57,723 nucleotides of DNA, from NCBI GenBank assembly GCA_009843815.1, contig VYCS01000039.1, positions 1-57,723 of the forward strand, given 5' to 3'. The notes beneath the pieces were generated by a model that was not told where the DNA came from, did no database searches, and worked only from the letters and a program-made list of their open reading frames with translations. Of this stretch, positions 33,712-57,723 are shown in pieces. Source of the DNA: Cenarchaeum sp. SB0675_bin_21. Lineage in GTDB: Archaea; Thermoproteota; Nitrososphaeria; Nitrososphaerales; Nitrosopumilaceae. Position 1 is the stretch's first letter; each line of letters starts with the position of its first letter. Position numbers and translations under genes: made by a program.

Positions 33712-36111
33712 ATGACACTAAAACATCATTTGCGTTTAATGATGAAAATTCTTACAGTGACAATCGTTGCAATGTTTGCAATTACATTGACTAGTAGCGC
33801 ATTTGCGCAGACTGATGACAAAATGATGATGATGGATAGCACGCCCTTGTCTGGAACTATAACCATTGGTGGTCTATTTCCCCTTACAGGTGATATAAGC
33901 TCCATTGGTATACAAATGCAGGCTGCATCCGAGTTGGCAGTTGAGGACTTTAACGCATACCTTGAAGAAGAGGGAGCTCAGTGGCGGTTTGTACTGTCTT
34001 CAGAAGACACAGCCACCAACCCTGCAATTGCATTAGAAAAGATACAAGCCCTCTATGCACGAGGAATTAGTAATATAATAGGACCAATAACGAGTGGTAA
34101 TACGCTAAACGTCAAGGACTATGCTGACAGTAACGACATGTTAATAATGAGTTGTTGCTCGACGGCACCCAATCTAGCTATATCTGGCGACAGCATCTAT
34201 AGATTTGTACCAGATGACGAAAACCAAGGCAATGCGTTGGGCAATCTTCTTACCAGAGACGATATTAAAGCAATGGTTCCGGTTTGGAGGGGAGACCCAT
34301 ATGGAGACGGCCTGCGGGAAGCAGCCGCAGCTAACTTTGAGTCTAGAGGCGGTGAAGCACATCCTGGAGTAAGGTATGCACCTGATACGCCCGAACTGTC
34401 ATTGGAGGCGGCTCTCTTGGCAAAGTATGTGCAAGAGATGGCTGACGAACACGGTACAGAAAATGTAGCAGTCTTTGTAATCGCATTTGATGAGATCGCT
34501 AGATTGATTCAATCTGCCTCACAACACCCAATACTCAGAGATGTATCTTGGTATGGAACAGAGTCTACCGCTGATTCGGACGAACTAATTAATGATAGAA
34601 TTGTATCTGAGTTTGCCGACACAGTCGGCTATACGGCGATGCAACTCTTGCCTAGCCCTGGCCCTGAGAGAGAACGTATTCAAGACCAATTGACAGAAGA
34701 GCTGGGCACAACACCCAATGTATTTGCATACCAAGCATACGACTCCGTATGGGTATTGGGCAAGGCCATAATGAAGGCGAACAGTGCTGATTCAGCATAC
34801 ATCAAGAGCGTACTTTATGATGTGGCAGCAACCTATAGTGGTGCTACAGGATCCACAGCTCTTAACGATGCAGGTGACCTAGCAGTAGCTAACTACCAAG
34901 TGGTGAAAGTGGAAGATGGTGCCTGGATACAAAAGGACAAGTACTCTGCAGCCAGAGATCTTCTAATACCGTCCACCCAACCTGAAGAGGATGTGACAAT
35001 TGGTTCCATATATCCCCTGACCGGTGACCTCTCTGCAAGAGGTCCACACAGACTGGCTAGTAGTCAACTTGGCGTTGCAGACTTTAATTCGTTCCTGACA
35101 TCACTGGATATTGACTGGAAGCTTAAACTGGTTAGTGAGGATTCTGAGACCAAAGCGACTGTAGCATTTGATAAGGCTCAGGTACTTAAAACCAGAGGCA
35201 TAGATGTTATCATTGGAATACCCGCAAGCGGTAACGTTCTACAAGTCAAATCATACACTGACACCAACAATATGCTCGTACTCAGCTGTTGCTCTACATC
35301 GCCAACTTTGGCCATTCCCAACGATAGTATCTTTAGGGTGGCTCCTGATGATGCCACACAAGCCCGTGCCCTTGCTAAATTGATGGAAACTTCAGGCATA
35401 GAGCATCTAGCTATAATACACAGAGGAGATGACTATGCAGACACATTGGCTGAATACACCGCAGAGAACTTTATGAAGTTTGGTAATGCGGAAGAACCGA
35501 TCCGTTACATTGAAACATCAGAATACTCTAGTTCAGTATCATTGCTGGCAGATACGGTACAAGAACTAGTGGATGCACATGGTGCAGACAAAGTTGCAGT
35601 ATTGATGATATCATTCGATGAATCTGTAAATATCGTTCAAACTGCAGCCTCATATCCCATTCTAGATGATGTTAGGTGGTTTGGTGCTGAAACACATGTC
35701 GGAGTATCGTTCTTTGCAGACGATGCAATTGCCGATGAGTTTATCAATTCGGTAGACTTTACGGCATTGTTTGTGTCTGATGAGGGCAATGAAGGTGATG
35801 TGACTGAACGTATTACACAACACATACGAGACAAATTTGGTGCAGATCCTGCTTCATACGTGAAGCAAGCATATGATGCTGCATGGCTCATAGGATTGTC
35901 CATACTTGTAAGCGGCTCTGATGATACATCTGTATTAAAAGAAACCTTACCTATTGTGGCATCAACGTATAGTGGTGCCTTGATTTCTACTGAAATGAAC
36001 GAGAATGGTGACTTGCTACCATTGGACCTTGCAATATGGCAAGTAATTGATAGCGAATGGGTAGAACAAGGTACGTATTCACTGTCTACAGGTACGATTA
36101 TACCAAAATAA
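33712..36111 (+). CDS. Secreted protein with two tandem LivK-type substrate-binding domains
   Basis: A 799-residue exported protein. A signal peptide (MMKILTVTIVAMFAI... to SAFAQ) precedes two homologous type I periplasmic-binding domains, about 45-410 and 415-799. Each repeats the blocks GGLFPLTGD or GSIYPLTGD, SCCSTAPNLAI or SCCSTSPTLAI, and RGDPYGDGL or RGDDYADTL. No transmembrane anchor or transporter genes are adjacent, so it may act as a solute-binding or sensing surface protein. A paralogue lies at 46477. ATG at 33739 is an alternative start. Confidence 0.9.
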   Translation: MTLKHHLRLMMKILTVTIVAMFAITLTSSAFAQTDDKMMMMDSTPLSGTITIGGLFPLTGDISSIGIQMQAASELAVEDFNAYLEEEGAQWRFVLSSEDTATNPAIALEKIQALYARGISNIIGPITSGNTLNVKDYADSNDMLIMSCCSTAPNLAISGDSIYRFVPDDENQGNALGNLLTRDDIKAMVPVWRGDPYGDGLREAAAANFESRGGEAHPGVRYAPDTPELSLEAALLAKYVQEMADEHGTENVAVFVIAFDEIARLIQSASQHPILRDVSWYGTESTADSDELINDRIVSEFADTVGYTAMQLLPSPGPERERIQDQLTEELGTTPNVFAYQAYDSVWVLGKAIMKANSADSAYIKSVLYDVAATYSGATGSTALNDAGDLAVANYQVVKVEDGAWIQKDKYSAARDLLIPSTQPEEDVTIGSIYPLTGDLSARGPHRLASSQLGVADFNSFLTSLDIDWKLKLVSEDSETKATVAFDKAQVLKTRGIDVIIGIPASGNVLQVKSYTDTNNMLVLSCCSTSPTLAIPNDSIFRVAPDDATQARALAKLMETSGIEHLAIIHRGDDYADTLAEYTAENFMKFGNAEEPIRYIETSEYSSSVSLLADTVQELVDAHGADKVAVLMISFDESVNIVQTAASYPILDDVRWFGAETHVGVSFFADDAIADEFINSVDFTALFVSDEGNEGDVTERITQHIRDKFGADPASYVKQAYDAAWLIGLSILVSGSDDTSVLKETLPIVASTYSGALISTEMNENGDLLPLDLAIWQVIDSEWVEQGTYSLSTGTIIPK

Positions 36112-41281: not shown

Positions 41282-43327
41282 TTAGTCGCTTTTGTATTGG
41301 TTTACGTGCTCTGCTATGGTCCTGTATAGTGACCTAAAGTTGTCCCGTGTCTGACTACTGAGAAAGTCTGTCTGACGGGTGGAAATCTTGTCGCATATGT
41401 AACGAGTTATGTCCAGATGATCAAACTCTCCCCAGTCATCCTCGTAATGTTCGCTCCATATCTCTGATAGTGACTTGACTATGCCACCATCCCCGTCCAC
41501 CAACTCAGAGGGTATGTCGGTGTACCTCTTACCCCGAAGCTTGACCTCATATGTCTGGTTTACCGCGTACAGATAGTCATTACGGGCAATATAATCCTCT
41601 ATTGACTCTAGTTTTTTACCATCTCTCTCATAGAATACTGTCTGTATGCTTGAGAATCCGTTTTGAGCCAAGGCTGCCGCTATGTGACGTGACTCTATTG
41701 TGTCGTCTAGCAGTATTATTGTCTTGTAGCCATGATCCCTATAGAATATGGATAGAGGTAGGACTGCATCCTTTGAGTGACTGGCCACGACATTTAGCGG
41801 GTTCATGGATATGCTGGGATCTTGAACAAACTTATCAAATGCATTCAGATACATCGCATCAGACATGGTTTCCACTATGACTACGGGTCGGGAGTTGATA
41901 CCAATACTTGTGTCTGTTATGGACTGAACTAAACCCCGGGATAAACCATACAGTATTGGTGTCAATGTCTTACTATCTGCATTCCAATAGTCATAGAAGA
42001 TTCTACTAAGGTGTCGCCGTCTGTCCAACTCCACTACTAACAGATTACCTGGATTATAATCAAATATCATAAAGGGTGAGTGTGTTGCGTATAATACCTG
42101 ATTTGAACCTGCCAGATCCCTGAGCAAGTCTGCTATGCCCAACTGTTGTGTCGGGTGCAGATTACGCGCCGGCTCATCAAGTAGCAGTATGGCCTCTTTT
42201 AGCTCTGCACGTTGTGTCTCAGCAGCAAAGTTGACTATGAATGAAAATGTCCACTTGAATCCTTCGGCCCGACGATTCAACAGTCCTGTATTAGTAATAG
42301 TCCCATCATGGTGTACGTCTGATATGACAAGACTCATTATATTTCCCGGATTGTACCTCAAATCCACACGTATGGGGTCCCCCTTCCAGGTGGGATTCAG
42401 TCTCTTTGTCAGTCGGTTGCTGGAAGTGTTCAGTATCTTTATGAGTGTGGAGGGACTGTCCTTGAAAGACTCCAAAGCGTCCAAATCCAGCTCTGCTAAA
42501 TAGAACAAATTCCTCACAGTCTCTGCCTTGTCGAACTCTTCCACATACTCTATGGCATCCCTTCTCTTTTCTCTTTGATCATCACTAAACTCATTGAGAT
42601 TGATATTTCCATGTATCTTTTTGTAGTCGGAGAAGTAGACAAATCTAGGATGTAACTCTGAACTGATAAAGTTCTCCAATGTCTTTCTCTGACTCATGCC
42701 TTCCATTATACTCTCAAAACTGTTCTGAGGGCTCTCGTATATTGCAGTCCACTCTTTCAAGACCTGATCCTCCCGCATGGCTATTGTTCTTATCTGCGTA
42801 TTCAAATGATTAAATCCTGCATCAAATTCCTGTGATGTCTGTGGTTGAGGCGACTCAAGAAAGGTTGAATCTATCTTTTCTCGTATGTGATTGGGTATGG
42901 TACTTAAAAAAGTCTGAACATCATTTACAAAGTTACTCCAAGATCTGGAGTCAGGCTGTATGGTCTCATCAATCTGTACATCTCCAAAACTATACTGCAC
43001 TTCTGAAGATTTGTTGGTACGAAAGAGCTTTATCTCTCTTATCTCTGGTATGTCTGGAAAATTTTCTTGTATTATGGTAGTCTCTGTCTGTGTCAGCTCA
43101 AAGTTGCCTTCTGCCAGTACTATCTCAGACTTTAACTCCTCGGACATCTCATCACACAAGTCCAGCTCTGAGGCGTGCCCATCCTTGTTTAGAAGTGTGA
43201 GGGCTTCTAGTATTGTGGTCTTACCACTCTCATTGCGCCCCACAAATGTGGCCAAATCTCCCACTGATATCTCGCCAGAGTCATGTATACATCTAAAAGC
43301 CCTGACACGGAATTTGCGCAATCGCAT
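41282..43327 (-). CDS. OLD-family ATPase-nuclease (AAA + Toprim)
   Basis: 681 residues. The N-terminal ABC-type ATPase has Walker A FVGRNESGKTT (29-38), the signature region before LLLDEPARNLHP (Walker B) and YATHSPFM (H-loop). The C-terminal half has a Toprim nuclease: VVIVETMSDAMYLNAF and TIILLDDTIE. This is the overcoming-lysogenization-defect architecture, known from phage defence and DNA repair. No partner helicase (as in Gabija) is adjacent. It sits at the edge of the mobile-element island. Confidence 0.88.
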   Translation of the reverse strand: MRLRKFRVRAFRCIHDSGEISVGDLATFVGRNESGKTTILEALTLLNKDGHASELDLCDEMSEELKSEIVLAEGNFELTQTETTIIQENFPDIPEIREIKLFRTNKSSEVQYSFGDVQIDETIQPDSRSWSNFVNDVQTFLSTIPNHIREKIDSTFLESPQPQTSQEFDAGFNHLNTQIRTIAMREDQVLKEWTAIYESPQNSFESIMEGMSQRKTLENFISSELHPRFVYFSDYKKIHGNINLNEFSDDQREKRRDAIEYVEEFDKAETVRNLFYLAELDLDALESFKDSPSTLIKILNTSSNRLTKRLNPTWKGDPIRVDLRYNPGNIMSLVISDVHHDGTITNTGLLNRRAEGFKWTFSFIVNFAAETQRAELKEAILLLDEPARNLHPTQQLGIADLLRDLAGSNQVLYATHSPFMIFDYNPGNLLVVELDRRRHLSRIFYDYWNADSKTLTPILYGLSRGLVQSITDTSIGINSRPVVIVETMSDAMYLNAFDKFVQDPSISMNPLNVVASHSKDAVLPLSIFYRDHGYKTIILLDDTIESRHIAAALAQNGFSSIQTVFYERDGKKLESIEDYIARNDYLYAVNQTYEVKLRGKRYTDIPSELVDGDGGIVKSLSEIWSEHYEDDWGEFDHLDITRYICDKISTRQTDFLSSQTRDNFRSLYRTIAEHVNQYKSD

Positions 43328-43464
43328 TAATGTTTTGTATATATACAGAGCGATTTAATTCCTTCGGGAGTGTGCGCAATCAGGAGGTCTGTATCCGATA
43401 ACTAGAGCAATAATAACTTACATATTTTATCAATAAATTGGACTATTACACAGTCTTTATGTTG

Positions 43465-43647
43465 TTACTTTCGTCGTCGTCTCTGCCCAGGCTTATTCTG
43501 CCCAGGAAACCTACTTAATAATATCCTTTTACGATAGTTACTCTTGTTCTGTAGACTGGAGTTTGTGCCTATTCTTTTACGACCATCTATCTTTGGTGTC
43601 TGACCTCGAACTTTACCTGCTTTTGTAAGCGAACCGTGAGTTGCCAT
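43465..43647 (-). CDS. rps30e: Ribosomal protein S30e
   Basis: A 60-residue, very basic protein. MATHGSLTKAGKVRGQTPK matches the family start and GQNKPGQRRRRK its end. It is a small-subunit protein of Archaea and eukaryotes. It lies alone between the OLD gene and the transposon-rich segment. Confidence 0.93.
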   Translation of the reverse strand: MATHGSLTKAGKVRGQTPKIDGRKRIGTNSSLQNKSNYRKRILLSRFPGQNKPGQRRRRK

Positions 43648-43776
43648 TATACATTATAATGATTCTAGTTGAAATTTAATTGTTGTGCAGAGGACAACGG
43701 GAATTATATACATGAGTAGGCAAGATACTTGGCCAATGGGTGTATATTTATAAAGTACTATAATGTATAAAACAGC

Positions 43777-45114
43777 ATGTATCGGTCTTGTGGCTTCCGC
43801 ATAGAGTTAACACATTCACAGGCGCGCCACATATCCAATATACGGGACTCGCAGCGGTTCGTGTACAACTGGGCCGTGGAGCGGCTGCTAGCCGACCCCA
43901 CACTTACCGCATATGACCTTTCCAAGGAGTTCACCAAGGTGAGGCGTTCCGTACGGTGGCTACAAAGAGTGGAGCGCATATACCAAAATACTGCCATACA
44001 CCAGGTCCGCGCTGCGGCAGATGTCTCGAACAAATACGGCAATGGTGAGCTAAGTCTCCGTTCCAGAAAGCGCAGCAATACAAAGGCAATATCATGTGAT
44101 GTGTAGCCGCGATTTGTAAACAACAAACACGCGTCATTGCCGGGCCTTGGTGTTGTTGAATTGTGCGAGGAGCAGCCATATCAGTTTCCACACAACTGGT
44201 TGTATGGCGCCAGGTCATTCCGTTTGGTACAAGTTACACCAAAGTCGTGGATGCACGTTAAACCATGCGACCACATCTACCGGCTACATATAACATATAC
44301 TGTATCAGCACCCGAACAGCGCGCCAAAACTGGTGTTGTTGCTGGCATAGACCGAGAGATAACAAACCCAACCGTTGTATGTAAGACAGACCATGACACA
44401 TCAAATATCATATCATATGATACTGCAACTGCGTTCCGCACGAACCGCACATGGAATGATGAAGCGCGCCGCACCATATCACGCCGCAACAAACACTCCG
44501 ATTCGACGTATAAAATTAAACGCAAACGAGAAAAGTACAACCAAGGTAATGCAAATGACCGCGAGTATGCGGAGTGGCTTCTAGCCAAGAAGATATGCGA
44601 GGGTGTGGATGCAATATATGTTGAGCAGCTCAATCTGGAGGCCATGACTCGGCGCGGTGGCCGGCACAAGAAGGGCACGAATCGCGGCATGAGGTTCATT
44701 AGACATAGTATGATACTGCGAAAGATACGCATTGTTGCGGAGCGACTGGGCATCCATGTAATAGAAATAAATCCAAAACACACCAGTCAGGAGTGCAGCG
44801 TGTGTGGCTACACAAACAAGGAGAACCGAGATGGGGAGACGTTCAAGTGTTTGGGATGTGGGCATGTAACAAACGCCGACGGTAACGCGTCAGTGAATAT
44901 GATTCAACGGGGAACCGGTATGAAGGTTCCCGCGGGGGAAGGAATAGCCCTCGAAAGGCGTGAAATGGGCCGGAACCGGAAGCCCCCAGTTTGTGCAGTT
45001 CCGGACGCCAGACGGCGGCGCGAGAATCAAGCGTGTAATCGACCCGAGACATCAAGCGCCATGAAGCATCTGGGAAGATATGTGTATGTTGTGCGTGTCT
45101 ACTCAGGTATATAA
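43777..45114 (+). pseudogene. tnpB: TnpB (IS605 OrfB) interrupted by one in-frame amber codon
   Basis: A single frame of about 445 codons is broken only by TAG at 44104-44106. N-terminal part: FRIELTHSQARHISN and RFVYNWAVERL. After the stop: RuvC-I GIDREITNPTV, RuvC-II YVEQLNLEAM, the zinc finger CSVCGY...CLGCG and RuvC-III NADGNASVNM. All catalytic acidic residues are present. TnpB is the RNA-guided nuclease of IS200/IS605 elements. No TnpA is next to it. A recent nonsense mutation is the simplest reading; suppression is possible. Confidence 0.85.
44104..44106 (+). other. In-frame TAG within tnpB
   Basis: The codons before (SCDV) and after (PRFVNNKHAS) keep the same reading frame, and homology to the family resumes immediately, so this is one point mutation rather than a frameshift. 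Confidence 0.8.
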
Positions 45115-45206
45115 TTCTCAGAACAACGTTTCATAATTTGTATGTCTCCCGGCAGCAGATTGGTGTAGCGGACCCCTACGGACAGTCAGATCACTAAGTA
45201 CATAGC

Positions 45207-45568
45207 GTGCCATATGAAGATAAAGATCGTATACGGACAAAAGAATCGAACGGTCACTCCCCATACGGCAAGCCCAAGCGGACACCGGCAGAGAAGGATA
45301 CTAGGAACGTGGCTCTGGAGCAGCTGGGCGGTGGGTGCACCACCGCGTTGCTTGCCAAAATAAAGATAAGCGCAAAAAACACCAGGAGTGGAATGAGAGG
45401 GTCGGGTACAACAGCAAGTGGATGGTGACGATTATAATATACTCATTCAAGAGGCTGCTGGGCAAGGCGCTCCGGGCGGTAAAACCTGAGTATATAATGA
45501 TAGATATTGCTACAAAGATAACCGTGTATGACAAAACCCGGGACGTTATGCGTAAGGCCACGGAGTGA
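45207..45568 (+). pseudogene. Frameshifted C-terminal remnant of a DDE transposase (IS5/IS4-like)
   Basis: Part 1 (from 45207) reads PYGKPKRTPAEKDTRNVALE then QLGG. After a shift near 45330 part 2 reads WNERVGYNSKWMVTIIIYSFKRLLGKAL, matching the C-terminal block of IS5-type transposases, where the catalytic Glu normally follows the W-(I/M)-V; here Thr replaces it. The upstream catalytic domain is missing. An inactive insertion-sequence scar directly downstream of tnpB. Confidence 0.6.
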
Positions 45569-45585
45569 GACGTATATAACGCCGT

Positions 45586-45659
45586 CCCGTGCGGCCCGGA
45601 ATCCGCATGGTGGTCGGACTGTCCAGGTTGCGTTAGGTCACGAATTATAAAATACTGTT
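45586..45659 (+). repeat. 73-bp transposon-end repeat, copy 1
   Basis: Runs from CCCGTGCGG to ATACTGTT just after the DDE transposase remnant. It aligns with 49542-49614 at about 80% identity with one single-base gap, and most differences are transitions. Likely the right-end sequence of the insertion sequence. Confidence 0.75.
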
Positions 45660-46162
45660 TCGCAGCGCCCATCCCGTGACCGCGCTATATTCGCCGGGCT
45701 CCAGACCGGCCGTACCGCAAGGTCGCGCGAATGGCTATCGCAGAAACGCGGAGCAGATAGCAAAGATTGGTTCCGACTGCCAATCCAGTCTCAGTTGTGT
45801 TTCACGTAAATCGTAAATTAGTTATGGACAAGAGGTCTACATAATCTCTACTGGATGCCTATGCGCAGGTCTAATCACTAATGTCTTGACAACGGGCCCA
45901 TTCCCATTGAATGCCGGGCCCCTCTAGACCCGTAACTTTTTGGATAATGGCATGAGATGAGGTCCTCAGTCCAGTCGACTACTACCACTCATGCAGATAA
46001 TACAAAAATGCGTCAATCCGCATTCAAATTATGTGCATCGGTTTTCGTAATGGGCTGACATGACTCCATTTTTCTTGCTGCACTCTTCACCATCTCCATC
46101 ATACATTTCGATCCCATCCATTGGTAGGTCGCTGTCATTCGTTGTGTTGGCACCATCTACTT
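45660..46162. other. Gene-free stretch inside the island
   Basis: No supportable gene. The first half (45660-45840) has GC-rich, coding-like composition without a long frame and may be more insertion-sequence debris. GGGCCC occurs at both arms of an imperfect palindrome near 45895-45920. The remainder is spacer before the micro-gene on the minus strand. Confidence 0.35.
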
Positions 46163-46255
46163 CTACCGCATGAACGTGCCGCCGGCTAAGAGCATACTGA
46201 TTCCGGTAATTACAAAGACTGCACCCAGGCCTGCCATGAGTAATTTTTTGTTCAT
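46163..46255 (-). CDS. 30-residue membrane peptide
   Basis: Reads MNKKLLMAGLGAVFVITGIS then MLLAGGTFMR. It has a basic start and one hydrophobic helix. AATATTATATAATTTG, a strong TATA-like element, lies about 30 bases upstream on this strand. Its composition and promoter make it a plausible micro-gene of unknown function. Confidence 0.4.
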   Translation of the reverse strand: MNKKLLMAGLGAVFVITGISMLLAGGTFMR

Positions 46256-46476
46256 CAGTGTCTATGTGCAAACAAATTATATAATATTTATGTAATGTTA
46301 CAAGGCGGAAAGTTATCTCTGCTTGCCTGTAGGTGTAAAGTTTGGGTGTCTGGCTTGCCCGCCGGTAGAATGCGTACTTCGTTACAGGCGCCTGATTTGA
46401 CATATACATCAAGGCGCTGTTCATTTGGCCTAGCACTCCTTCAGTATGTTTTTATATTTCCGAGGACTCTCCACGC

Positions 46477-49275
46477 GTGATGAGATCAGCTCCATACCTG
46501 TTGGTCCTGCTGGTGGCTGTAGCAGGTGTGGCCATGTGGTCTGACTCGCTAGCCGATCATGCAGAGGTAACTATATCCATCCGGGATGGAGCAAACCAGT
46601 TGGGATGTGAGCAGTATGATGCATGCTATAGCCCCAGCGCCGTGTCACTTGATGCTGGTGGCGAGGTGATCTGGTCCAACGACGATTCTGTCACTCACGT
46701 TATAGCCAGTGGTACGCCGGAGAACGGTGATACGAGGTTCGCCCAAGCTACACTGGAGCCAGGCCAGACGTACTCACTACGCCTGCATGATCCTGGTACC
46801 TATCCGTTCTACGACCCAGACCACCCCTGGATGACCGGGATGATAACAGTGCAGGGTGGGGCCGCTGATGACCATCACGATGGCGACGGCCAGCCGGTCT
46901 CCCCTCTGCACGGAACGGTCGTGGTGGGAGCATTACATGCCATCACCGGAGAACTAAGCGACATAGGAGGAGAGGCGCGGGTGGGCGCCAAACTGGCCGT
47001 ATCCGACTTTAACGAATATCTAGAGGAACAGGGCGCCGGATGGAGGCTTGAGATCGTCGAAGAGGACACAGCTACCGATCCGGATACTGCTCTTGAAAAG
47101 ATAGAATCTCTTCACCAGCGGGGGATTGGCATACTACTCGGCCCGCCGGCCAGTGCCAGTGCCGTTAACATAAAGGAGTATGCTGATTCGCAGGGGTTGC
47201 TACTTTTGTCCTGCTGCTCTGCCGCGCCCAGTCTGAGCATTGCAGATGACAGCATCTACAGACTGGTTCCCGACAGTGCCAACCAGGCAATCGCCTTGGG
47301 TAAATTACTTGAGCTCAACGGGATAGAGGTACTGGTTCCAATATGGCGGGGAGATGCCTATGGCGACGGAATGCGTGCCGCCGTTGCGGAGATCTTTGAG
47401 GCCGCCGGTGGAGTGGTCAGCAACGGGGTACAATACGGGGACGGCCCGTCCCCGAGTATGACGGTCCCGCTAGACGGGGATGTCGGGGCCGATACAACAG
47501 ACGCGCCTGACCTACCCGCATACCACAACGAGGCCGGCCTTCTAGCAGAACACGTCCGGGAGGCCGTAGACCGCCACGGCGCCAACAAGGTGGCCGTACT
47601 GGCGGTATCCTTTGATGAGATGACCGAGATAGTGCTGGCTGCCTCCCAGCACGACATCCTGGATGATATACTCTGGTTTGGCTCCGGCTCGCTGGCCAAC
47701 GCGCCCTATCTGGTAGAGGGTGAAGCCATATCTGACTTTATGGGGACCGTCAACTTCACAACGGCCTCGTCGATGGTCAGTCCTGGATACAGGTTCGACA
47801 ACGTGACGGACAGGGCCTTGGAGATAATCGGCAGAACACCTAACCTGTTCACATACTCAGCATACGACTCCGTCTGGCTGGTAGGCAAGTCGATAATGGA
47901 GGCCGGCAGTACCGAGCCGGCCGCAGTCAGGGAAGTACTGCCGGAGGTAGCTGCCTCCTACAGCGGTGCCATGAGCAGTACCCAGCTGGACGAGGCTGGA
48001 GACCTTTTGCTTGCCAACTACAGAATATGGACCATTGTAAACGGCACTTGGGTGGAGACGGGCAAGTACTCTGCGGAGAGAGACCTACTGGTAGCCGCCG
48101 TCCAGCCGACCGGCGAGGTGCGCATAGGAGCACTATATCCGGTGACCGGCAGCACCAAAGGGGCCGAGAACCGGGAGGCCGCACTATTGGGGGCCAGAGA
48201 CTTTAACGCATTTCTGTCTAGTATCAACGTGGACTGGCGGCTGTCCATCATACCGGAGGATACCATCTCCAACCCCTTCACGGCGCTGGTCAAGGCCCGG
48301 GAGATGCACCAAGACGGCATCGACATTATAATCGGACCCCAACTCAGTATCAACGTCGAACGGGTGGGCAGGTATGTCAACCAGAACAGCATGATGCTGC
48401 TCAGCTGCTGCTCCACCGCTCCGAGCCTGGCTGTTCCCGGAGACGGAATATTTCGGCTCATCCCGGACGACTCCAAGCAGGGCGTTGCGGTAGGCAGACT
48501 ACTGGAAAGCGCAGGCATCAAGGCGATGGTTTCCATATGGCGTGGTGATGTCTACGGCGATGGCCTGCGGGCTGCTACTGCCGAGAGCTTCGAGTCTAGA
48601 GGCGGTATCGTGGGAGATGGTGTGCGGTACGGTATCGCCGAGACGGACTTTACAGAGGAGGTGGCAGCTCTGGCGGATGAGGTCAGAGCCATGGTGAATG
48701 AGTACGGGGTCGACAAGGTAGCAGTCTTTGCGGCATCCTTTGGTGAGGGCGCCAAGAAGATCGCAGAAACGTCATCCACGGTCGACATTCTTACCGATGT
48801 CCGATGGTTCGGCTCCGAAGCACTGGCTAAGACCCCCGTACTGACCGAGGAGGCGCTGCTCGACCTGGCCCATTCGGTCCGGTTTACCGCCTTACAGGTG
48901 GCCGACAATCCGGGCTACTCGTACGAGCGCGTGCACCAGCACATATCTGATACATTCGGGCAGGAACCTACGTCTCATGTCTACCGTTCCTATGATGCTG
49001 TATGGCTGGTCGGCCTGTCAATACTGCATACGGGGATGGCAGATGCAACCGCCGTCAAGTCCGTATTCCACGATGTAGCTTCTGGTTACAACGGCGCCCA
49101 AGACAGTACCGTGCTGAACGAGGCAGGCGATTTGGCCTCCGCCGATTATGCCGTCTGGCAGGTAGTCGATGGAGAATGGAAAGAGATTGGCCGATATTCG
49201 TTGCTTGACGACTCGTTGGCGATACACGATCATGGACAATCCAGTGGTGACCATGAGGTGGATCGCGACCCCTAG
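46477..49275 (+). CDS. Cupredoxin-like domain fused to two LivK-type binding domains; GC-rich
   Basis: 932 residues. A signal peptide (about 1-27) leads to a plastocyanin-like domain (30-130) with VIWSNDDSVTHV and TYPFYDPDHPWMTGMITV; the His and Met ligands remain, but Asp replaces the Cys of the usual YxC motif. Two periplasmic-binding domains follow (about 145-535 and 540-925), each with an SCCS(A/T)APSLxx block. It is a paralogue of the protein at 33712. GC is visibly higher than in flanking genes (41 of 60 bases at 47401-47460), suggesting transfer. Confidence 0.88.
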   Translation: MMRSAPYLLVLLVAVAGVAMWSDSLADHAEVTISIRDGANQLGCEQYDACYSPSAVSLDAGGEVIWSNDDSVTHVIASGTPENGDTRFAQATLEPGQTYSLRLHDPGTYPFYDPDHPWMTGMITVQGGAADDHHDGDGQPVSPLHGTVVVGALHAITGELSDIGGEARVGAKLAVSDFNEYLEEQGAGWRLEIVEEDTATDPDTALEKIESLHQRGIGILLGPPASASAVNIKEYADSQGLLLLSCCSAAPSLSIADDSIYRLVPDSANQAIALGKLLELNGIEVLVPIWRGDAYGDGMRAAVAEIFEAAGGVVSNGVQYGDGPSPSMTVPLDGDVGADTTDAPDLPAYHNEAGLLAEHVREAVDRHGANKVAVLAVSFDEMTEIVLAASQHDILDDILWFGSGSLANAPYLVEGEAISDFMGTVNFTTASSMVSPGYRFDNVTDRALEIIGRTPNLFTYSAYDSVWLVGKSIMEAGSTEPAAVREVLPEVAASYSGAMSSTQLDEAGDLLLANYRIWTIVNGTWVETGKYSAERDLLVAAVQPTGEVRIGALYPVTGSTKGAENREAALLGARDFNAFLSSINVDWRLSIIPEDTISNPFTALVKAREMHQDGIDIIIGPQLSINVERVGRYVNQNSMMLLSCCSTAPSLAVPGDGIFRLIPDDSKQGVAVGRLLESAGIKAMVSIWRGDVYGDGLRAATAESFESRGGIVGDGVRYGIAETDFTEEVAALADEVRAMVNEYGVDKVAVFAASFGEGAKKIAETSSTVDILTDVRWFGSEALAKTPVLTEEALLDLAHSVRFTALQVADNPGYSYERVHQHISDTFGQEPTSHVYRSYDAVWLVGLSILHTGMADATAVKSVFHDVASGYNGAQDSTVLNEAGDLASADYAVWQVVDGEWKEIGRYSLLDDSLAIHDHGQSSGDHEVDRDP

Positions 49276-49541
49276 ATTCTGTCCTCGCGTGTCTGAGTCG
49301 TGATTTTACGCACAGATATAATTCGTGCACAAGTCCGATTCGAACGCACCATCAATGCGTGTTCCTCCGGTTCCGGAGCGGCCGGATGCCCGACTCCCAT
49401 CCTATGTGCTCGGGACTTGTTGGACCGTCCGGCGTGGTGATCCACAAGCGGTGTATGATAAACTTGCTGAACCATACAACAGGTGTCGTCAAAAACTCGC
49501 CGATATTCGTTCCGGACCAAAATGCATACGATGCCCCCCGC
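49276..49541 (+). pseudogene. Probable insertion-sequence debris
   Basis: GC-rich stretch between the receptor gene and copy 2 of the end repeat. Frames here (for example one reading AVYDKLAEPYNRCRQKLADI) resemble the C-terminal end of IS transposases such as the one at 45335 (VYDKTRDVMRK) but are too short to assign. No intact gene. Confidence 0.35.
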
Positions 49542-49614
49542 CCCGCATGGCCCGGGATCCGCATCGTGGTCGACTGTCCAGGCCGCGTTAGGCCACGAAT
49601 TATGAGGTGCTGTC
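49542..49614 (+). repeat. 73-bp transposon-end repeat, copy 2
   Basis: Same orientation as copy 1 at 45586-45659. Upstream of each copy is a GTGTATGA(C/T)AAAAC/T-like stretch (about 45522 and 49453), implying that both copies are the 3' ends of related insertion sequences. The two bracket the GC-rich receptor gene. Confidence 0.7.
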
Positions 49615-49626
49615 CTCGATACACTA

Positions 49627-49636
49627 TTTTTAAATT
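49627..49636 (+). promoter_or_regulatory. TATA box of the shikimate operon
   Basis: TTTTTAAATT is centred about 27 bases before the ATG at 49659. It lies just outside the island repeat and decides the start of the first operon gene, since a longer frame extends up to 49359 without family similarity. Confidence 0.6.
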
Positions 49637-49658
49637 GGGACATTACACAGAATACAAC

Positions 49659-50423
49659 ATGGTGGATGGCATCAAATTAAGATTGAATCGTATTATGCGA
49701 GATGGAAAGATGTTATGTGTTCCCATGGATCATGGCATATCAAATGGCCCCATACCTGGTCTTGAAAGACCTGAGGATGTAATACAAAAGTGTAAGGGTC
49801 TTACTAGTGTAATTATAAACAAAGGTATACTAAAATCATTATACCGTCCGCCAGATGTGGGTATACTTGTACACTTTTCTGCTAGCACATCCCTCTCACT
49901 TAGCCCCAATCGCAAGATGCTGACCGGCAGTGTGGAGGAGGCTGTTCGCATGGGTGCAGACGGTGTCTCATTGCACATAAACGTAGGTGGTAAGGAGGAA
50001 CCAGAGATGCTGTCCCAACTAGGGGAGGTGGCTGATCACTGTCAGATGTGGGGTATGCCACTACTGGCTATGATGTATCCTAGAGGTGAAAATATACAAG
50101 ACCCACATGATCCCGATATAGTGGCCCATGCGGCCCGTATTGGCGCCGAATGCGGTGCCGATATAGTAAAGACAGTATATACAGGCGATGTGAAGTCTTT
50201 TGCCAAAATAGTACACAGTACACCAGTGCCCATAGTAGTGGCAGGTGGTCCACGAGTCGACGGTGATCACGGTATACTACAGATGACACAAGACATAATG
50301 GAGGCAGGCGCCAAAGGTGTTACATATGGCAGAAACATATTCTCCCATAGAGACCCCCCAGCCATAACCACTGCATTATCTCGTATAATATTTGGCGGAG
50401 AGTCAGCAGGATCGGTGATGTAA
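49659..50423 (+). CDS. aroA': 2-amino-3,7-dideoxy-D-threo-hept-6-ulosonate synthase (archaeal shikimate step 1)
   Basis: 254 residues, FBP-aldolase class I fold. [20 protein letters not shown] is the family opening, [10 protein letters not shown] holds the Schiff-base Lys, and [12 protein letters not shown] the phosphate site. It makes the precursor of 3-dehydroquinate in organisms without DAHP synthase. ATG 49659 is preferred because of the TATA box and normal length. The next gene, DHQ synthase II, is its partner enzyme. Confidence 0.92.
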
Positions 50424-57390: not shown

Positions 57391-57433
57391 ACTCATCTCT
57401 TTTTCTGACATGTCTGATGTGTTCTTAAGGGAA

Positions 57434-57723
57434 TTATATACAAAAGTACACAGCCTCGGCTGTACACTCATGCCTTTTCTGACGGCTTTTTTGTATACAG
57501 TGGAGCATAGAAGGTGTTGGCTTGTAGCCCTCCTTGTGCCCCGGCCGTCTTAGGACGACGTTCCCCGCCGCCCTATACAGAATGTTCCAGGCGGCATTGA
57601 CATCCGCGTGGAATACCCTGGTACAATTAGTGCAAATGAATTTGTCGCGTGATGTACACGACTCTGAGTCTACGTGACCACACACATGGCACGTCTGGCT
57701 CGTATATTTGGCCGATGCCCCCA
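57434..57723 (-). CDS. tnpB: TnpB C-terminal part (gene continues beyond the window)
   Basis: The minus strand, entering from the right edge, reads GASAKYTSQTCHVCGHVDS, then FICTNCTRVFHADVNAAWNI, ending EAVYFCI and a stop. These are the zinc finger and RuvC-III regions of TnpB. An imperfect hairpin (GTACACAGCC/GGCTGTAC) at about 57447-57470 near the gene end resembles the subterminal structure of IS605 right ends, where the guide RNA is encoded. It is a different lineage from the copy at 43777. Confidence 0.8.
   Translation of the reverse strand, partial: GASAKYTSQTCHVCGHVDSESCTSRDKFICTNCTRVFHADVNAAWNILYRAAGNVVLRRPGHKEGYKPTPSMLHCIQKSRQKRHECTAEAVYFCI

Follow-up and report, generated by a model that had tools for sequence, protein, structure and literature searches.

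The window analysed here is a stretch of 57,723 nucleotides that forms contig C15 of the 48-contig, 1.61-Mb genome (44% GC) of Cenarchaeum sp. SB0675_bin_21, a sponge-type ammonia-oxidising archaeon. Between the gene for ribosomal protein S30 and an aldolase gene, it carries a decayed insertion sequence (IS) of the IS5 family, a TnpB element nested in the left end of this IS, a GC-rich receptor-like gene, and an isolated right end of that IS family (Table 1). An earlier interpretation made from the letters of the DNA alone (the sequence-only reading) had proposed that the receptor gene arrived between two related IS copies in the manner of a composite transposon. The locus was compared with that of two congeners, Cenarchaeum sp. 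SB0662_bin_33 (G002; contig VXON01000090.1), whose genome is the closest, and the metagenome-assembled genome 277c_17 (G001; JAGWAW01). Genome G003 (2,045,086 bp) is presumably that of C. symbiosum A.

The aldolase gene heads a conserved operon for 3-dehydroquinate synthase II (PF01959). Positions 43688-49617 of the window are absent from the G002 contig, in which homology spans the block from an ATPase gene to the S30 gene and resumes at 49618 at the operon. This ATPase-S30 block (41295-43687 in the window; locus L142 in VXON01000090.1) is inverted relative to the aldolase/dehydroquinate synthase operon between the window's genome and G002, and G002 therefore offers no clean empty site. Neither the spacer past position 45658 nor the segment 49276-49537 had a match in four genomes.

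Table 1. Features of the S30-aldolase interval and related features of the window (terminal inverted repeats are given as left...right).
Feature	Positions	Strand	Evidence
Paralogous two-domain receptor, host-like composition	33712..36111	+	47% identity; GC3 0.373
Ribosomal protein S30 gene, last native gene on left	43465..43647	-	Pfam PF04758, E = 5.7e-9; sister-genome homology stops at 43687
Left target duplication AGGACAAC of TnpB element	43691..43698	.	7/8 match to 45120-45127
IS copy 1, IS5 family, decayed, transposase internally deleted, split by TnpB element	43693..45659 (43693-43698 + 45120-45659)	+	Restored end GACAACGTTTCATAATTTG
TnpB element inside the left end of IS copy 1; terminal inverted repeats GGGAATTATATACATGAGTA...TACTCAGGTATATAATTCTC	43699..45119	+	83-85% identical to seven other genome copies
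Broken TnpB gene, N-terminal part (HTH_OrfB_IS605)	43777..44106	+	PF12323, E = 4.2e-6
Broken TnpB gene, RuvC/zinc-ribbon part; stop codon inside right terminal repeat	44137..45114	+	PF07282, E = 2.7e-18; NF040570 guided_TnpB above cut-off
OmegaRNA-like conserved 3' region running into right terminal repeat	44918..45119	+	Identity profile between genomes, consensus fold
Right target duplication AGAACAAC of TnpB element	45120..45127	.	7/8 match to 43691-43698
Repeat 1, right end of IS copy 1	45586..45659	+	Repeat alignment, genome search
Spacer from IS copy 1 to receptor	45660..46476	.	GC 0.474 vs 0.404 host intergenic
GC-rich receptor-like gene, 932 amino acids	46477..49275	+	Pfam: cupredoxin and two ANF_receptor/Peripla_BP_6 domains
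Repeat 2, solitary 77-bp right end, same IS family	49538..49614	+	Terminates at GACAG...TGTC
Native sequence on right: 5' flank, then aldolase gene of DeoC/LacD type starting at 49659	49615..50423	+	PF01791; homology to VXON01000090.1 from 49618
Second TnpB element end, other TnpB lineage, same terminal repeat, contig edge	57429..57723	-	Terminal-repeat and TnpB comparison
TnpB-element loci, two lineages	Window 43699-45119; L202-L207, L209, L210, L212, L251, L258		Terminal repeats and 8-bp duplications

The two direct repeats on which the sequence-only reading was built (45586-45659 and 49542-49614) were confirmed, with 83% identity in an ungapped 42-bp core and 85% over 67 bp in a whole-genome search (E = 1.3e-14). 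The genome-wide repeat search suggested with that reading revealed a family of eight copies in the same genome and further copies in G001, so that the two neighbouring copies are not a specific pair. The repeats are right ends of an IS5-family element with a terminal inverted repeat of approximately 19 bp (GACAGCGTTTCATAATTCG) and 8-bp target duplications. The copies in G001 extend to both element ends, left-end and right-end contigs being paired by identical 8-bp flanks (CATGGCAT; TTGCTACC), and the copy on contig C8 of the window's genome has the 8-bp flanks AATTAAGC/AATTATGC. A transposase fragment from a G001 copy matched PF13737 (DDE_Tnp_1_5; E = 4e-9) and the NCBI IS5 family model NF033579 (E = 9e-14, below the curated cut-off on this fragment). 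The IS5-type DDE transposase, the terminal repeats and the 8-bp duplication are thus shared with the IS5 family, while the copies in Cenarchaeum sp. SB0675_bin_21 differ in being internally deleted. We take the 8-bp duplication to suggest the ISH1-like subgroup of IS5.

Both repeats were correctly recognized by the sequence-only reading as ends of related, since decayed IS copies; they belong to one family and have the same orientation. Its statement that each repeat follows IS debris applies to copy 1, an internally deleted IS in which a C-terminal transposase remnant precedes the right end, but not to copy 2, which consists of a 77-bp right end only. Although several contigs of congeners end about 77 bp inside the IS, an assembly k-mer artefact was rejected as the origin of repeat 2, since repeat 2 and any other copy are only about 85% alike. 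Other lone right ends of this family lie at C13:30741 and C21:46171. A miniature element of 119 bp without transposase, with IS5-type ends and 8-bp duplications, is present on contig C8 (L009, 3899-4017).

Alignment with seven further copies delimited the TnpB unit of the window at 43699 and 45119, with terminal repeats GGGAATTATATACCTGGGTA...TACCCAGGTATATAATTCCC and flanking 8-bp duplications. When the unit and one copy of its duplication were removed from the window, an IS5-type end was regained (GACAACGTTTCATAATTTG; 17/19 identical to the consensus GACAGCGTTTCATAATTCG). IS copy 1 therefore spans 43693-45659, its left boundary lying to the left of the TnpB element and not at about 45.1 kb, and the TnpB unit is the younger insertion. 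A left end of IS copy 1 at 45122, with a 9-bp flank match (AATTCTCAG) to the sister operon flank as proof of a single insertion, had been considered and was rejected, since the seven-copy alignment assigns AATTCTC to the terminus of the TnpB element and identifies AGAACAAC as the target duplication of that element.

The composition of the receptor gene deviates from that of its neighbours, as the sequence-only reading had noted: its GC content is 0.579, and its GC content at third codon positions (GC3) is 0.648 compared to 0.440 +/- 0.043 in 39 other genes of the window, a difference of 4.8 standard deviations (SD). The N-terminus of the encoded protein is hydrophobic and, as judged by eye, signal-peptide-like. 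In the cupredoxin domain (46477-46900), aspartate is present where most relatives have the copper-ligand cysteine (FYDPDHPWM vs YFCLVHPWM), which makes a blue-copper function of the receptor doubtful. The host-like composition attributed to the paralogue at 33712 was likewise found. This paralogue has a mosaic structure, with 85% identity to a gene of the sister genome over the first half and 90% identity to a gene on contig C34 of its own genome over the second half. The sister gene matching the first half has the opposite orientation and adjoins the same helicase gene.

The receptor family had 41 matches in the window's genome. A domain tree placed the receptor of the window in a clade restricted to its own genus (support of 99 in the Shimodaira-Hasegawa-like approximate likelihood-ratio test, SH-aLRT). 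Its closest relatives are congeneric and 47-52% identical, as compared to 73-89% for two adjoining core genes. A search of 250 genomes of the family at E<=1e-120 hit the congeners and two distant members at 39-41% identity but no foreign donor, and viral contigs yielded none either. The family is one of lineage-specific secreted binding proteins that are reshuffled among paralogues and congeners.

High GC content is not peculiar to the window receptor. In a sample of 118 genes, biased to receptor and repeat loci, 13 had a GC3 above 0.6, many of them coding for receptors or other apparently secreted proteins; examples are C21:44431-46104 (GC3 0.78; L014/L266) and C13:21963-28034 (GC3 0.69-0.73; L170/L011). 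These genes form sharp single-gene islands and are a recurrent class, mostly without IS on both sides. A lone IS right end adjoins such a gene on C21, and another lies at most 3 kb from one on C13. Receptor copies of the congener G001 have a GC3 of about 0.7-0.8. The high GC content suggests acquisition from GC-rich congeners rather than transport by IS.

Taken together, the site is probably a rearrangement-prone intergenic hotspot of decayed mobile elements, to which the receptor gene came, or at which it stayed, by recombination and not as cargo of a composite transposon. An IS5-family element generating an 8-bp target duplication inserted at 43693, between the S30 gene and the aldolase/dehydroquinate synthase operon, and a TnpB element with inverted terminal repeats subsequently inserted into its left end. 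A solitary IS5-type right end is left at 49538-49614, the elements having decayed, and the receptor gene would most likely have reached or stayed at this hotspot through recombination. The module exchange seen in the 33712 paralogue suggests that recombination is the more probable way in for the window receptor as well. The blocks adjoining both receptor genes are inverted between the window's genome and G002.

The arrival of the receptor between two IS copies, as put forward in the sequence-only reading, was not supported: two direct IS5-type copies would have entered the S30-operon interval together with the gene, as a single unit, and decayed afterwards. The outer 8-bp flanks, GTGCAGAG (43685-43692) and CTCGATAC (49615-49622), are identical at 3 of 8 positions and thus do not constitute a shared target duplication; copy 2 is a lone end with nothing beyond its 77 bp; and neither a donor nor a second location of the receptor-IS unit was found, while other GC-rich genes occur without IS pairs. 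Further, copy 1 may own a target duplication, its flanks GTGCAGAG and TCGCAGCG (45660-45667) being identical at 5 of 8 positions. This match is weak evidence for a duplication made by solo insertion of copy 1, as about 3% of such comparisons would reach it by chance, and its weakness is one of several points that weigh against recombination at a hotspot. The GC content is raised on both flanks of the receptor gene (0.474 and 0.531 vs 0.404 intergenic), the right ends are directly oriented around a single gene, native homology restarts directly after repeat 2 as expected of a composite unit, and the inversion in the sister genome blocks a clean empty-site comparison. The two IS copies also share family, orientation and a similar divergence (about 15%), the interval is absent at the sister operon with native homology resuming at the outer end of repeat 2, and the receptor composition is aberrant. 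On balance the composite model is unproven and appears somewhat disfavoured, and we regard it as unlikely. Repeats and odd composition can thus mimic a composite transposon where outer duplications, nesting and genome-wide copy number disagree.

Delivery of the receptor gene together with the attached lone IS end through homologous recombination between dispersed IS right ends, with replacement of the intervening DNA, would fit the lone right ends that adjoin a GC-rich gene (C21) or lie within 3 kb of one (C13), the similarity of the IS copies (about 85%) and the inversions near both receptors. However, 77 bp at 85% identity would hardly support homologous recombination today and a source locus was not found, so that this route seems rather improbable. 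It is very improbable that the receptor gene is an old resident whose high GC content was simply retained and which the IS copies flank by chance: although the family is genus-wide and congener copies have a GC3 of 0.7-0.8, the sister contig lacks the gene next to the operon, and the host-like paralogues show that GC3 declines in resident members. Recombination at a hotspot accordingly remains the preferred reading for the receptor gene. The receptor part of the locus is ordinary genome plasticity; its more noteworthy part is the nested TnpB element.

The TnpB elements have terminal inverted repeats of about 20 bp (GGGAATTATATAC...) and 8-bp target duplications, which are precise in two genomes. 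Exact or near-exact duplications were found in the window's genome (AAATTTTT, GACAAATT, CAACTTAG, ATGAACAA/ATAAACAA) at copies with intact or broken TnpB genes, and in G001 (GGCCGCTG, TACTACGC, GAGATTCA). A second TnpB lineage (450 amino acids, 30% identical to the first) shares these ends; its duplications are ATTTGTAA and GACCTTAA/TACCTTAA. Y1 (HUH) TnpA (PF01797) was absent from the window's genome and from both congeners, and 0 of 41 genomes, its own and 40 relatives, scored above the cut-off, with five control genomes positive. The notion that 43699-45119 is an IS605-like unit was rejected on account of the terminal inverted repeats, the 8-bp duplications and the lack of a detectable IS605-type TnpA. 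No TnpB or terminal repeat of these elements was found in viral contigs.

At the 3' end of the elements, identity between genomes rises to 0.77-0.88 compared to about 0.63 in the coding body. In the predicted consensus fold the last stem takes in bases of the terminal repeat; the fold is tentative because two-sided changes occur at only three pairs. Rfam gave no match within 43600-49700.

The window TnpB element has no transposase of its own. Its GGG... terminal repeats are common to IS1595 transposase copies in G002 (L271, L274, L288, L286), and the IS1595-type transposases of three of these, intact or decayed (L271, L274, L288), start about 50 bp inside GGGAATTATAT ends. The resemblance to the IS1595 family thus concerns the ends and was read at one end of autonomous copies, while the window element differs in carrying no transposase. 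In the decayed element L286 (G002:C69, 1018-2475), a remnant of an IS1595-type transposase and the C-terminal part of a TnpB lie between one pair of GGGAATTAT ends, with flanks identical at 5 of 8 positions. A DDE transposase of the IS1595 type, acting in trans, would have mobilized the TnpB element. Quite probably, TnpB and its guide RNA were captured by an IS1595-type cut-and-paste DDE transposon within the genus, at least twice since two TnpB lineages with 30% identity share the ends, and now spread as a passenger whose stop codon and RNA scaffold are fitted into the terminal repeat. Such a capture in prokaryotes would parallel that of Fanzors in eukaryotes.

Prokaryotic TnpB has been described in IS200/IS605 and IS607 elements (PMC8612924, PMC6188088), both of which are among the 13 families reported in a thaumarchaeal survey (PMC6563490). 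Like both, the elements studied here have the TnpB protein and a conserved right-end region for a structured RNA. They differ from IS200/IS605 in their ~20-bp terminal inverted repeats and 8-bp duplications and in that no Y1 TnpA was detected, and from IS607 in the presence of inverted repeats and target duplications. The transposons that harbour Fanzors have inverted repeats and target duplications (PMC3627910, PMC10711439). Fanzor1/Fanzor2* elements thus have in common with the Cenarchaeum elements a TnpB-type nuclease in such a transposon, the repeat being a predicted part of the guide RNA scaffold; the archaeal host and TnpB and the other transposase family set the latter apart. A prokaryotic TnpB in an inverted-repeat DDE transposon was not found described in the open-licence papers that were consulted, so that priority is not established. 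If the capture is real, multi-copy archaeal TnpB elements make the guide-RNA adaptation of an RNA-guided nuclease to a DDE transposon testable in a prokaryote.

Two observations concern further copies. The element end at the edge of the window (57429-57723; also L252) has the flank gttcttaa, which equals the right flank of the copy on contig C28; as the two flanks of the latter disagree, different repeat copies may have been wrongly joined in C28. Finally, contig C12 carries a miniature element of 380 bp without transposase (L261, 451-830) that has TnpB/IS1595-type ends and 8-bp duplications.

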